Shown piece after piece: positions 4,997 to 9,294 of a stretch of DNA of 64,000 nt. Each line of letters starts with the position of its first letter. Position 1 is the stretch's first letter. A program made the position numbers and the translations under genes. The DNA comes from Polaribacter sp. (GTDB lineage: Bacteria > Bacteroidota > Bacteroidia > Flavobacteriales > Flavobacteriaceae). Under the pieces are notes generated by a model. It ran no database searches. It had not been told where the DNA came from and worked only from the letters and a program-made list of their open reading frames with translations. The stretch lies in the NCBI RefSeq assembly GCF_024639685.1, contig NZ_JAHEHX010000003.1:124001-188000 (forward strand). The letters run 5' to 3'.

Positions 4997-5470
4997 TTAT
5001 TTAAGATATTTGTCTAGGATAGAATTCATTTTTTTAGAATTCAAATACCCATCAAACAGCACATCAATTTCATAATCTGAGTTTAGAATTATGGTTGTTG
5101 GGTAACTAATTTTGTCTTCTGAAATGGTAAGTTGATTTGCCAATTCATGAATACCAGAATTACCTGAAGGTTTGTAAGAAAAGTTTCTTCCTAAAAAGGT
5201 AATATCGCTTTTTTCCTCTCCATTCAACATCACAAAATAATAATCTGAATTTAGTTTTTCAATTACTTTTGAATTTTGAAAAGTATTTTTTTTCATACCA
5301 TAACAAATCTTGCACCAATCTGTATACAAGAATATCACCATTGGTTTAGGAGCTATTTTTTGTAATTTTTCTACTTCAGGAAAGGTGTATTTTTTTAATC
5401 CAGTTGTTTTTTCTTGCGCACATAAATTAATACTTATTAATAGAATTAAAATGGAAAAACATTTTTTCAT
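4997..5470 (-). CDS. Periplasmic thioredoxin-fold protein (DUF255/thioredoxin_7 type)
   Basis: The product has a signal peptide (MKKCFSILILLISINLCAQ) and a thioredoxin fold with the active-site motif WCKIC near residue 55, followed by the usual cis-Pro region (SYPTTII). The longest frame starts ten codons upstream, but ATG 5470 places the signal peptide at the N-terminus and is preferred. It begins eight bases after the TonB receptor stop, so the two form an operon. Such proteins reduce or oxidise thiols in the periplasm; the partner here may be the receptor or its ligand, which is inference. An AT-only inverted repeat (4982-4999) covers its stop codon. Confidence 0.85.
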   Translation of the reverse strand: MKKCFSILILLISINLCAQEKTTGLKKYTFPEVEKLQKIAPKPMVIFLYTDWCKICYGMKKNTFQNSKVIEKLNSDYYFVMLNGEEKSDITFLGRNFSYKPSGNSGIHELANQLTISEDKISYPTTIILNSDYEIDVLFDGYLNSKKMNSILDKYLK

Positions 5471-5477
5471 AATGTTT

Positions 5478-7709
5478 CTAAAATAAAGTAAATCTAACAC
5501 CTAAAAAAGCCCTAATTCCTTGGTTGGACGCATATACATAACTTGGGTCAAAAGTCAATGCATCAGAATCATTTGGGTCTACTTGCTCATCAAAAGGATC
5601 AAATGCTCTAGAAATACTATTGGCTGCTGGTGTAAAGTTTAAAAGATTTTTTACACCACCATAAATTTCGCAAGAATTGGTGAATCTCTTACTCAATTGA
5701 ATATTTTGAATACTAAACCAAGGAGAGTATGCTGCTCTATCGTCTTTAGGTCCTAACAAAGGCAAACGCATTGGGCCATATAAGTTACCTGTATAATCTA
5801 CAGTAAAATTATTGTCAAATTTATATGAGATAGACCAAACACCACTAAAACTTTCTGTAAGTAATTGTCTCCTCTTAATATTGTTTTCAGTTACTGAAAC
5901 ATCCATTAAAGTTGCACCAGCATTTATTGCTAAACCTTTTGTAAATAAAATATCTGCGTTTAAAGAAACACCCTTAGAAACTGAAAAACCTTCTAGATTT
6001 GCATAGATAATTTTGTTAGGGTCTGTTTCATAATCAGGTAAAATTCTATTGTTAAAGTAGGTATAAAAAGCGCTTGCATCTAAAGTGATGAAAGAGTTTT
6101 CTGTATTAATTTTTTTGACGTAATTAATATTGGCATTCCATGAAGTTTCTGGTTCTAAATCGCCTTGAAACTCTACTTCTCTTGCACCTGTTAAAGCTGC
6201 ATGATCTTCTGTAAAAACATTGGCTACTCTAAAACCATTACCAACACTTACTCTAAAAATATTTGATTTATCTCTAGAGTTCCATTTGTAATTTATTCTT
6301 GGAGATAATATGCTTCCATGCACACTATTATAATCCCATCTTAAACCAAGTAATAATTTCTTTCTATCTGTTATACTTATTTCATCTTGTGCAAATATTC
6401 CAGGTAAATGTATTTTAGAAGGCTGATTAAAATTACCAGTTTCATCTAAAGTAGCAAAAGTATTATCATCATAATAGGTGTACCTGTAAGCCAAACCTAA
6501 AAGTAAATCTTGTTTGTCATTTATTTTGGTATCGTAAACCAATTGTCCAAAAGCTATTAATTGAGTGGCATCATAAGAATCTGTTCCGTAAAAAGAGTCT
6601 TGATAATGGCCATTTGCACTAAATTGGAAATTTATATTTTCTGTTGTAGGTAATTGATAAGTTCCAAAAGTCTCCCACCTATTGGTGTAAATACTTTCTC
6701 CATAGACAATGTTACTTCCTCTAAATTTACGTTTCCAATCCAATTCTCCTCCCCATCTATCTTCATAAACATATCTACCAGCAATTGTAAAAACTTTATT
6801 GCTTTTACGGTCGACATTAATTTTGTTAAAGATTGATATTCTGTTTTGTAGGGTTAAATCTGTAAAATTATCATTGTTATTATCTACTCTATTTTGAAAG
6901 TTAAAATAATTAATTCCCAATAAACCTTGTGCTTTTTCGGAAATTTGATAGCGTAAACCAATATCAGTATTTACTTCTCCCCAAGAACTTGCAAAAACAT
7001 CTGTAGATAATTTTGGTGCATTTGTAGGTTTTTTTGTAATGATATTAATAATTCCACCAACAGCTTCAGAACCATATAAAGTGGAAGCAGGGCCTTTTAC
7101 AACTTCAACTCTTTCAATTAAAGCTTGTGGAATTCCTGTTAAACCATAAACCGTAGATAAACCACTTACAATTGGCATTCCATCAATTAAAACAAATGTA
7201 TATGGGCCCTCTAAACCATTAATGTGAATATCTCCTGTATTACAAACATTACAGTTTAGTTGAGGTCTAATTCCGTTTACATTTTGCAAAGATTCAAATA
7301 CAGAAGGTGTAGGATTTTTTTTAAAAAAAGTTTTGCTGTATACTTCTACAGGAACAGGACTTGCTGTTTTAGAAACGGGTCTTAAAGAACCAGAAATTAC
7401 AATTTCATCTAGTGAATTATCGTCTTCTAAAACAATGTTTTTAATTCGATTGTTATCATCTAAAACTAGTTTAGACGTAAAGGTTTTAAACCCAATGCTA
7501 CTTACAACTAGTGTGTATTTCCCTTTTAACTTGTAATTCAATTCATAAGAACCATTATCTGTAGAATTGGTGCCTAATTTCGTGTTCTTCAGAAAAATAT
7601 TAGCAAAAGCTATGGCATCGCCATTTTTAGAAGTTATTTTTCCTTTTATACTTTTGCTAATTCCAACTTGTGTAATTAGCAATAAGATTAGAATAATATA
7701 ATTTTTCAA
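5478..7709 (-). CDS. TonB-dependent outer-membrane receptor with CxxC plug motif
   Basis: The order of domains is signal peptide (MKNYIILILLLITQ), carboxypeptidase-D regulatory-like beta-sandwich (about 20-105), TonB plug (about 115-225, with VEVVKGPASTLYGSEAVGGIINI), and a 22-strand barrel ending in FLGVRFTLF, a typical terminal aromatic strand. The plug carries a CNVCNTGD motif. The family imports metal chelates, haem or vitamins using ExbB/ExbD/TonB energy. No ATG is available at the 5' end; TTG at 7709 (or TTG 7715) is the likely start, close to a TATATTTG promoter at 7724-7731. It shares its upstream region and probably an operator with the dtxR-ZIP operon, suggesting metal-regulated uptake. 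The substrate is not known. Confidence 0.9.
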   Translation of the reverse strand: MKNYIILILLLITQVGISKSIKGKITSKNGDAIAFANIFLKNTKLGTNSTDNGSYELNYKLKGKYTLVVSSIGFKTFTSKLVLDDNNRIKNIVLEDDNSLDEIVISGSLRPVSKTASPVPVEVYSKTFFKKNPTPSVFESLQNVNGIRPQLNCNVCNTGDIHINGLEGPYTFVLIDGMPIVSGLSTVYGLTGIPQALIERVEVVKGPASTLYGSEAVGGIINIITKKPTNAPKLSTDVFASSWGEVNTDIGLRYQISEKAQGLLGINYFNFQNRVDNNNDNFTDLTLQNRISIFNKINVDRKSNKVFTIAGRYVYEDRWGGELDWKRKFRGSNIVYGESIYTNRWETFGTYQLPTTENINFQFSANGHYQDSFYGTDSYDATQLIAFGQLVYDTKINDKQDLLLGLAYRYTYYDDNTFATLDETGNFNQPSKIHLPGIFAQDEISITDRKKLLLGLRWDYNSVHGSILSPRINYKWNSRDKSNIFRVSVGNGFRVANVFTEDHAALTGAREVEFQGDLEPETSWNANINYVKKINTENSFITLDASAFYTYFNNRILPDYETDPNKIIYANLEGFSVSKGVSLNADILFTKGLAINAGATLMDVSVTENNIKRRQLLTESFSGVWSISYKFDNNFTVDYTGNLYGPMRLPLLGPKDDRAAYSPWFSIQNIQLSKRFTNSCEIYGGVKNLLNFTPAANSISRAFDPFDEQVDPNDSDALTFDPSYVYASNQGIRAFLGVRFTLF

Positions 7710-7723
7710 GATCAAAATTTATG

Positions 7724-7731
7724 CAAATATA
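7724..7731 (-). promoter_or_regulatory. -7 element of the TonB receptor operon
   Basis: The minus strand reads TATATTTG, a perfect TAnnTTTG match. The predicted start near 7717 gives a leader of only about 2-8 bases before the TTG codons. The operator-like palindrome begins eight bases upstream, over the -33 region. Confidence 0.55.
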
Positions 7732-7738
7732 AAATAAA

Positions 7739-7756
7739 TTTTAGACTTGTCTAAAA
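7739..7756. promoter_or_regulatory. Palindromic operator candidate for the DtxR regulator
   Basis: TTTTAGAC-TT-GTCTAAAA is a perfect inverted repeat with 8-base arms and a 2-base centre. It sits midway between the divergent -7 elements at 7724-7731 (minus) and 7780-7787 (plus), covering the -33 region of both. Length and position fit the interrupted palindromes bound by DtxR/MntR-type repressors. That the DtxR encoded next door binds it is inference. Confidence 0.65.
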
Positions 7757-7779
7757 AACATTTATAAAATTAAAAAGTA

Positions 7780-7787
7780 TATATTTG
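7780..7787 (+). promoter_or_regulatory. -7 element of the dtxR-ZIP operon
   Basis: TATATTTG matches the Bacteroidota consensus exactly and lies 17 bases before the dtxR ATG. The palindrome at 7739-7756 ends 24 bases upstream, where the -33 contact would lie. Confidence 0.55.
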
Positions 7788-7804
7788 TCACATATAAAAA
7801 TGAT

Positions 7805-8461
7805 ATGTTTTCACAAGCAGAAGAAAATTATTTAAAAGCCATTTATCATTTAGAATCAGATTCTAAAGAAGGTATTAGTACCAACGCTATTGCTAAAAGT
7901 TTAGCAACAAAAGCTTCTTCAGTTTCTGATATGATTAAAAAATTATCAGACAAAGAAGTAGTGCTTTATAAGAAATATAAAGGGGTTACTTTAACAGAAT
8001 TAGGTGAAAAAACAGCTACTAATATTGTAAGAAAGCACAGACTTTGGGAGGTTTTTTTAGTAGAAAAACTGAACTTTTCTTGGGATGAAGTGCATGATGT
8101 TGCAGAACAGTTAGAACATATAAAGTCTCAAAAATTAATAAATCAGTTAGATGCTTTATTAGGTTTTCCAACTCACGATCCTCATGGAGATCCAATACCT
8201 GATAAAGATGGATTTGTTAATGCTATAGACAAAAGTTTACTATCTACATTAAATGTTGATGAAGCAGGTGTTTGTGTGGGTGTTAATGATTCATCATCAG
8301 ACTTTTTACAGTTTTTAGATAAAAAAGGAATAACATTAGGTAAACGTATTAAGGTTACTGAAAAGGAAGATTTTGATGATTCTCTATCTATTTTAATCGA
8401 TGATAAAAAATTGTCAATCTCTAATAAAATTGCAAATAATTTATACATTAAAAAATCATGA
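7805..8461 (+). CDS. DtxR/MntR-family metal-dependent transcriptional regulator
   Basis: The 218-residue protein has the full DtxR layout: winged helix (about 1-65, with SSVSDMIKKL as recognition helix), dimerisation and metal-binding domain (about 66-140, including HRLWEVF and PHGDPIP), and a C-terminal FeoA-like SH3 domain (about 150-218). Members repress metal-uptake genes when loaded with Mn(II) or Fe(II). Its stop overlaps the ZIP transporter start by four bases (ATGA), so both are co-translated. An 18-bp palindrome 48 bases upstream suggests autoregulation. Which metal it senses cannot be told from the sequence; co-transcription with a ZIP carrier allows Mn, Fe or Zn. Confidence 0.93.
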   Translation: MFSQAEENYLKAIYHLESDSKEGISTNAIAKSLATKASSVSDMIKKLSDKEVVLYKKYKGVTLTELGEKTATNIVRKHRLWEVFLVEKLNFSWDEVHDVAEQLEHIKSQKLINQLDALLGFPTHDPHGDPIPDKDGFVNAIDKSLLSTLNVDEAGVCVGVNDSSSDFLQFLDKKGITLGKRIKVTEKEDFDDSLSILIDDKKLSISNKIANNLYIKKS

Positions 8462-9294
8462 GTACATTCGAACAATTAGTAGCTTTTGGTAAAGAACATC
8501 CAATTCAAGCTGCTTTATATGCTTCACTTTTTACATGGGGTTTAACAGCTTTAGGAGCTGCTTTAGTTTTCTTTTTTAAGAAAATGAACAGAGCAGTTTT
8601 AGATGGTATGTTAGGATTTACTGGAGGTGTAATGGTTGCAGCTAGTTTTTGGAGTCTATTAGCGCCAGCTATAGACAATAGTCCAGGAGAAGGTTTTATG
8701 AAAGTTTTACCATCAGCAATTGGTTTTGCATTAGGTGCTTTAGCTTTATTTGGGATGGATAAAATTTTACCTCATTTGCATATTAATTTTAAAGAAAATG
8801 AAGCTGAAGGTGTAAAAACAGAATGGCATAAAACTACTTTATTAGTGCTAGCAATTACTTTGCATAATATTCCTGAAGGGTTAGCAGTTGGTGTATTATT
8901 TGGTGGAGCTTCTACTTTAGTAGGTGTAGAGCAAACAGAAATGATAATTGCAGCAATTTCTTTAGCAATTGGTATTGGAATTCAGAATTTTCCTGAAGGT
9001 TTTGCAGTGGCAATGCCTTTAAGAAGACAAGGAGTTAGTAGGTTCAAGAGTTTTTGGTATGGACAATTATCTGCAATTGTAGAGCCTTTTGCAGCGGTTT
9101 TAGGAGCATTGGCAGTTTCGTTTTTTACACCAATTTTACCTTCTGCATTAGCATTTGCTGCAGGTGCAATGATTTTTGTTGTAGTAGAAGAGGTAATACC
9201 AGAAACACAAAGAGATAAATACACAGATATTGCTACATTAGGTTTTATAGCTGGTTTTATTGTAATGATGTCTTTAGATGTTGGTTTAGGATAG
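8458..9294 (+). CDS. ZIP family divalent metal transporter
   Basis: An inner-membrane protein of 278 residues with about eight helices. The signature metal-binding motifs of the ZIP family are visible: HNIPEG in helix 4 (about residues 139-144) and QNFPEG in helix 5 (about 173-178). A short hydrophilic loop with HLH lies before helix 4. The family carries Zn, Fe or Mn across the inner membrane. It is co-transcribed with the DtxR regulator (four-base overlap) and followed by a strong terminator, so the pair is a two-gene operon. Together with the divergent TonB receptor, metal could pass both membranes, which is inference. Confidence 0.93.
   Translation: MSTFEQLVAFGKEHPIQAALYASLFTWGLTALGAALVFFFKKMNRAVLDGMLGFTGGVMVAASFWSLLAPAIDNSPGEGFMKVLPSAIGFALGALALFGMDKILPHLHINFKENEAEGVKTEWHKTTLLVLAITLHNIPEGLAVGVLFGGASTLVGVEQTEMIIAAISLAIGIGIQNFPEGFAVAMPLRRQGVSRFKSFWYGQLSAIVEPFAAVLGALAVSFFTPILPSALAFAAGAMIFVVVEEVIPETQRDKYTDIATLGFIAGFIVMMSLDVGLG

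Follow-up and report, generated by a model that had tools for sequence, protein, structure and literature searches.

A conserved palindrome as the predicted common operator of divergent dtxR-ZIP and TonB-dependent receptor operons in Polaribacter

Gene content of the divergent locus

The window, by which we mean the whole stretch of 64,000 nucleotides of Polaribacter DNA that was analyzed, contains two pairs of genes that point away from a common 89-bp intergenic region (Table 1). The first gene on the plus strand encodes a protein with the domains of the DtxR/MntR family, as indicated by Pfam matches above cut-off to PF01325 (4e-16), PF02742 (5.2e-32), and PF04023 (7.3e-13). Its best-scoring NCBIfam model is MntR (NF047407; 150.3 bits, below the cut-off of 350). 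The downstream ZIP transporter scores under the NCBIfam cut-off for the ZupT equivalog. On the opposite strand, a later start of the receptor gene (TTG at 7709) is also plausible. The 167-aa thioredoxin-like protein that follows carries a CKIC motif and stays slightly under the Pfam threshold (Thioredoxin_2, 26.3 bits vs cut-off 27; best E-value 1e-5).

Table 1 Coordinates of genes and regulatory features at the divergent locus of the window
Feature	Position	Strand	Description
Thioredoxin-like protein, WCKIC	4997..5500	-	Listed ORF overlaps the receptor gene
TonB-dependent receptor	5478..7715	-	Plug motif CNVC, aa 155-158; TTG at 7715 as listed start
-7 element TATATTTG of the TonB-receptor promoter	7724..7731	-	16 bp between its start and the operator centre
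Operator 22-mer AATTTTAGACTTGTCTAAAAAA (predicted)	7737..7758	none	Encloses the perfect palindrome 7739-7756
-7 element TATATTTG of the dtxR-ZIP promoter	7780..7787	+	32 bp between its start and the operator centre
DtxR/MntR-type regulator	7805..8461	+	Pfam; winged-helix, metal-binding/dimerisation, and FeoA domains; solved relatives
ZIP-family metal transporter	8458..9294	+	Pfam Zip 77 bits, cut-off 35.1; 4-bp overlap with the regulator gene

An intergenic palindrome between two promoters

A first-pass annotation of this DNA had described a perfect inverted repeat, TTTTAGAC-TT-GTCTAAAA, in the intergenic region, and re-reading the sequence confirmed the palindrome at that place. Taken alone and without regard to conservation, such a palindrome is not rare in the window: we counted 35 perfect inverted repeats (arms of at least 8, spacer 0-4), where 20 shuffles averaged 17.7; when at least two G/C per arm were demanded, the counts were 17 vs 6.0. 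When the 89-bp intergenic region was itself shuffled 5000 times, 344 of the shuffles held an inverted repeat of that length irrespective of composition and 13 held one with at least two G/C per arm. The palindrome by itself is thus hardly above chance, which makes its conservation the deciding evidence.

Both -7 elements were likewise found where they had been annotated, the one on the minus strand reading as the reverse complement CAAATATA on the plus strand at 7724-7731. Promoters of the primary sigma factor of Bacteroidota have the consensus TANNTTTG at -7 and TTG or TTTG at -33. The -7 consensus is matched on both strands, while inspection of the window sequence by eye revealed no clear TTG at the expected -33 spacing on either one. 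Measured from the operator centre, the minus -7 box starts at 16 bp in 71 of 81 sequences, among them the window, and the plus -7 box at 34-35 bp in 66 of the 81 (32 in the window). The palindrome had also been proposed to cover both -33 regions. With the Bacteroidota promoter spacing, this holds for the minus strand, where the -33 region falls inside the palindrome; the plus -33 region (~7757-7763) falls just past its edge and would be reached only by a footprint exceeding 18 bp.

This geometry bears on whether the palindrome is an operator at all. It could be a fortuitous repeat in AT-rich intergenic DNA or encode an RNA hairpin, for instance a terminator, as might be expected from the roughly twofold excess of repeats over shuffles and from the 344 shuffled regions mentioned above. 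Against this stand the orientation of the genes, which both point away, and the -7 boxes, which place the palindrome upstream of both transcripts. Together with the sequence-specific conservation reported below (95/99 regions vs 0/99 and 0/990 in controls), they leave this explanation a negligible probability.

Conservation of the site at orthologous dtxR loci

As a training set, 80 related loci were used, mostly from Polaribacter and Tenacibaculum; the nearest of the named loci kept among them belongs to an uncultured Polaribacter whose regulator is 90% identical. Within 200 bp upstream of dtxR, ATTTTTAGNCNNGNCTAAAAAT was matched with at most 5 mismatches of 18 in all 80 loci and with at most 2 in 69 of them. 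Among 61 distinct sites, the core TTTA and TAAA is invariant. A symmetrised matrix was built from the training sites and applied with a threshold of 14; the window operator scores 26.2, close to the training median of 26.6.

For the held-out test, 102 loci from other genomes were given, three of which (L165, L182, and L183) were dropped as duplicates. Of the remaining loci, G131 represents the genus of the window and all others come from other genera; none is a near-copy of a training locus (90% over 300 bp). A site scoring at least 14 was present in 95/99 dtxR upstream regions, compared with 0/99 of the same regions read backwards, 0/990 shuffled regions, and 0/1461 other 200-bp pieces of the training loci. 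The outcome depends little on the threshold (95/99 at 10 and 94/99 at 16, with 1/99 backwards regions at 10).

Each of the four misses is accompanied by a strong site at another place in the region. In L113 (G127), a site scoring 25.5 precedes mntH, which is followed by dtxR, and another precedes the receptor; in L236 (G191), the site heads the same-strand series TBDR-pTFP-dtxR. L122 (G174) has its site ~3.4 kb upstream beside a receptor and a weaker palindrome at dtxR, and the site of L117 (G125) lies 464 bp upstream, where no gene was identified. The first-pass annotation had made its reading depend on the palindrome being kept at orthologous loci, and it is kept in the 80 close and in the held-out loci alike.

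The exact core TTTTTAGNCNNGNCTAAAAA occurs in 21/199 genomes of the family (reversed control: 1/199), and 17 of these 21 places are at a listed dtxR gene. Outside the family, in a phylum-wide sample, scores of at least 14 were obtained for 8/10 loci with 51-57% identical regulators and for 3/21 loci with 41-50% identical ones (L353-L383).

In Actinobacteria and Firmicutes, the operators of DtxR/IdeR and MntR are palindromes on TTAG/CTAA half-sites. The Polaribacter site has such half-sites as well, and its core, TTTTTAG-N6-CTAAAAA with a variable centre, appears to differ. A conserved palindrome at the promoters of metal-transport genes, one of the marks of an operator of the DtxR/MntR type, is present here. 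It provides a testable operator for a metal-sensing regulator whose homologues, divergent paralogues included, occur in 178/199 Flavobacteriaceae genomes.

Association of the site with both operons

To relate the site to the receptor, 68 receptor rows were reduced to 55 distinct loci by removing 10 duplicates and the three rows with less than 46% identity (L172, L175, and L176, which have no such site before the receptor). A site scoring at least 12 is present at each of the 42 distinct receptor loci (at least 46% identity) that also contain a clade-I dtxR. The site is absent from all 11 loci with only a divergent DtxR; of the two loci without any DtxR, L160 (from the split genome G153) has it and L170 lacks it.

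In three genomes, the receptor and the clade-I dtxR are apart, and the site was found at the receptor in 3/3 and at dtxR in 2/3. The two genes lie on different contigs in G153 (scores of 26.3 at the receptor and 20.1 at dtxR) and kilobases apart in G084 (12.9 and 23.0, respectively). In G127, the site stands at the receptor (21.8) and also before mntH, dtxR itself being without one. Six further genomes, all of one genus, have the site ahead of mntH followed by dtxR; in four of them, a second site is located ahead of an opposite-strand receptor ~2 kb further up. At L347, a single site is common to the divergent receptor and mntH, and at L344 the site precedes mntH-dtxR, with no receptor found within the stretch fetched.

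Contrary cases were also observed. G030, G041, and G025 hold a clade-I dtxR elsewhere, while their receptor is next to a divergent DtxR and without this site. The receptor of G004, which is 37% identical and not among the 42, follows dtxR on the same strand and has no site of its own. Moreover, the site is present at 39 distinct loci where no adjacent receptor was detected, so that the two-operon layout is common and not universal.

The promoter geometry was compared between distinct site-bearing loci with and without an adjacent divergent receptor, absence meaning that none was detected by three receptor queries; four further loci were too short for either class. The minus -7 box is at its fixed distance in 103/133 loci with a receptor vs 7/39 without. 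The plus -7 box is likewise commoner with a receptor (129/133 vs 28/39), both comparisons being uncorrected for kinship.

These observations weigh against pure autoregulation, in which the site would control dtxR-ZIP only and the receptor promoter would merely lie nearby under other control. The 39 loci that keep the site with no receptor detected agree with it; separated receptors that retain their own site (G153, G127, and G084; L345, L346, L348, and L349), the site at 42/42 receptor loci with clade-I dtxR, and the minus -7 box that goes with receptor presence do not. We consider pure autoregulation quite improbable. The original proposal that one site serves both the receptor operon and the operon of dtxR itself thus gains support from conservation, the geometry of the -7 boxes, and the split loci.

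Variation of the operator with the regulator clade

More distant regulators are accompanied by other palindromes. Paralogues 33-37% identical to the window regulator have TTTAAG-4-CTTAAA in 9/9 loci (L145, L151, L154, L156, and L272-L276). At L145, L151, L154, and L156, dtxR stands immediately before a TonB receptor on the same strand. Regulators of 38-46% identity have GTTAG-6-CTAAC in 8/14 loci, and neither palindrome type was recognised in the remaining six (L137, L167-L169, L171, and L266).

In a tree of 37 regulators, from which these six were excluded, the three operator types need 3 changes, compared with a mean of 15.0 for shuffled labels and 0/200 shuffles as low. The labels had been assigned by operator beforehand, so that the test addresses clustering only. 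Residue 36 in the recognition helix is Lys in 183/184 clade-I regulators and Ser in 7/8 and 8/9 members of the other two groups. An operator type that varies with the regulator clade indicates the adjacent regulator as the binder. Such clade-specific operators amount to a natural experiment on DNA recognition in the DtxR family.

We regard the assignment of the site to the adjacent regulator and to both promoters as strong. The comparison of loci shows that the site exists and is conserved, that promoter elements flank it on both sides, that it persists where the genes have separated, and that its sequence is another one beside divergent regulators.

Plug cysteines of the receptor and a related module

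The CNVC of the receptor aligns just ahead of the SIRG strand of the colicin I receptor. Among 22 plug domains of the own genome, only that of the window receptor has a CxxC. The motif is present in 86/86 distinct receptors of at least 37% identity (CNVC in 67/86) and in 47/50 distinct, more distant ones (<37%; CQNC 26, CQTC 20, and CGVC 1); with duplicates, the tallies are 118/118 and 58/61. The three receptors without CxxC are L098, L119, and L266. L098 and L119 represent a further receptor type, divergent from dtxR and behind the operator, which indicates that the cysteine pair is dispensable for this position. At L016, L018, L032, L045, and others, receptors only 26-29% identical to that of the window occupy this divergent position at the same operator, which looks like the replacement of one type by another.

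In Stenotrophomonas maltophilia, a receptor with CQNC in its plug and a thioredoxin-fold partner (pTFP) are under a predicted MntR box, and this module is induced under joint shortage of Mn and Fe (PMC13217887). Common to both systems are a DtxR-family regulator gene nearby, a predicted palindromic box upstream of the receptor and its thioredoxin-fold or thioredoxin-like neighbour, and the cysteine pair in the plug. The upstream box has its counterpart in the predicted site at all 42 receptor loci with clade-I dtxR. The CNVC of the window receptor is aligned where the S. maltophilia type has CQNC, so that the CQNC motif itself is absent, and the receptor is roughly 26-34% identical to the CQNC/CQTC-type receptors examined. 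In S. maltophilia, one region is common to mntR and mntH, with a separate box for the receptor pair (PMC13217887), whereas in Polaribacter one box would serve two divergent operons, one of them comprising the regulator and a ZIP importer. The synteny reported there covers Lysobacterales, Sphingomonadales, and Opitutales, and the string 'Bacteroid' is absent from the main text (PMC13217887). By analogy, the receptor/thioredoxin-like pair of the window looks like the CQNC/pTFP module under an MntR box without being of the CQNC type by motif, and the thioredoxin-like neighbour is a candidate equivalent of pTFP. The locus would thereby connect TonB receptors of a type that has been little described with manganese/iron homeostasis in Flavobacteriaceae, for which our search of the open literature found no such receptor/metal system.

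Metal specificity of the regulator

The residues H78, E82, H97, E101, E104, H105, D125, and H127, which correspond to metal ligands of the family, are present in 184/184 clade-I rows (duplicates kept). Position 8 is N in 174/184 and D in 10/184 of these rows, and position 11 is K in 183/184. The window regulator has N8 and K11 and hence lacks the Asp8/Glu11 of the binuclear Mn site in Bacillus-type MntR; the five aligned solved relatives carry Asp at position 8. One segment, THDPHGDPIP, is common to the window regulator and to chain 8pvt, presumably the structure of DR2539.

DR2539 of Deinococcus radiodurans, a DtxR-type repressor of mntH, answers to Mn(II) and Fe(II) (PMC3327659). It shares with the window regulator a Lys at the position of MntR Glu11 and has His98 and an SH3-like domain; unlike in the window, no divergent receptor operon appears in the text consulted (PMC3327659). 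Within Bacteroidota, PgMntR of Porphyromonas gingivalis binds the promoter of its own operon, which includes the FeoB-type Mn transporter FB2, and its binding is strengthened by Mn and released by high Fe (PMC4805248). Both it and the window regulator are DtxR-family proteins of this phylum whose target, demonstrated or predicted, is the promoter of their own operon with a metal transporter. PgMntR differs in its twin FeoA domains, the bridging Cys108, and its binding of DNA also as the apo-protein; the terms 'palindrom', 'inverted repeat', and 'TonB' are absent from the main text of that paper (PMC4805248).

Downstream of dtxR, a ZIP gene was found within 1.5 kb in 72/110 loci (own genome counted once), a DtxR_C/FeoA protein with feoB in 8/110, and none of four queries in 30/110. 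In relatives, the site also stands before mntH in several genomes and before feoB in some. In G115 (L245 1500-1521), a site scoring 30.4 lies ahead of a second DtxR-dimerisation/FeoA protein, in which Pfam recognised no DNA-binding domain, followed by feoB. The feoB calls come from a Pfam scan for L166 and from reading the sequence for L245.

Based on mntH under the site, the ligand-type residues, DR2539, and PgMntR, Mn(II) is favoured as the effector, with Fe(II) possible; we hold this view with moderate confidence. The main rival differs in the metal only: an iron sensor of the IdeR/DtxR kind, a receptor importing an iron compound, and an iron box as its site. It draws on feoB downstream of dtxR in the 8 loci and on the strong site of G115, and it faces mntH under the site in several genomes, MntR as the best NCBIfam model (150 bits, again below cut-off), and E101 at a position where DtxR has a cysteine. 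Among characterized systems, DR2539, which also has Lys at position 11, answers to both metals and so speaks for iron (PMC3327659), while the CxxC-plug receptor of Stenotrophomonas is tied to an MntR box (PMC13217887). On balance, we regard the iron sensor as unlikely, though it deserves serious consideration.

Proposed regulation of the two operons

A repressor of the DtxR/MntR type that responds to Mn(II)/Fe(II), binds the common operator, and represses both divergent operons is, judged from these comparisons, very probably what the locus encodes. With enough Mn(II), perhaps Fe(II), in the cytosol, the regulator would be loaded with metal and bind ATTTTTAG-N6-CTAAAAAT. The receptor promoter would be blocked directly at its -33 region, the dtxR-ZIP promoter at its own via the edge of the footprint. 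Repression would thus be joint, covering the operon of regulator and ZIP importer and that of the outer-membrane receptor and thioredoxin-like protein. At low metal, both operons would be on, and the CxxC-plug outer-membrane receptor would be made together with the inner-membrane importer. We infer binding, repression, Mn as the effector, and the transport substrates, as well as the number of dimers; DtxR-family proteins often bind DNA as two dimers, so that the single dimer of the first-pass annotation is a tentative count.

In a broader and more tentative reading, which as a whole we consider possible but somewhat doubtful, the operator couples the receptor to whichever inner-membrane importer is present (ZIP, MntH, or a Feo system), and on two or more occasions its code has changed along with the regulator.

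Regulation of this kind is known in its logic. What we take to be new are the operator sequence, its sharing by a CxxC-plug receptor and a ZIP transporter, and its breadth in Flavobacteriaceae. The open literature on DtxR/MntR in Flavobacteria and Bacteroidetes yielded no recognisable account of the operator.

Further candidate sites

In the own genome, the strict pattern TTTAGACNNGTCTAAA has 1 exact match, and with at most 2 mismatches it occurs at 54 places vs 53 for the reversed control, so that the regulon cannot be read from this pattern. With TTTTAGNNNNNNCTAAAA and at most 1 mismatch, there were 132 places vs 79 in the control, among the matches listed. The eight other exact TTTTAGNNNNNNCTAAAA matches among those listed were weighed as operators by matrix score and rejected: L131 scores 14.8, just above the threshold of 14, but lies within an ORF; L128, L130, L132, and L133 score 7.3 to 9.4 and L129 scores 4.0; and for L126 and L127 the two best-scoring places do not include the palindrome. 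The window operator is the only strong intergenic site that the pattern searches found in the own genome, and scans of its mntH and feoB loci gave no site. An operator-like sequence scoring 16.0 at C13:34649-34670 (L003 1498-1519) is located in the 3' end of an ORF, ~190 bp before a SusC-like receptor gene.

In other genomes, operator-like sequences in G050 (L257 1500-1521; 30.4) and G018 (L262 1500-1521; 18.0) share the same neighbourhood; inspection by eye places them between genes that read as uvrB and Hsp20, and no gene start is obvious next to them. In G016 (L250 1500-1521), an operator-like site scoring 26.6 lies directly before a gene for a di-haem oxidoreductase/peroxidase (Pfam DHOR), which hints at a wider regulon.
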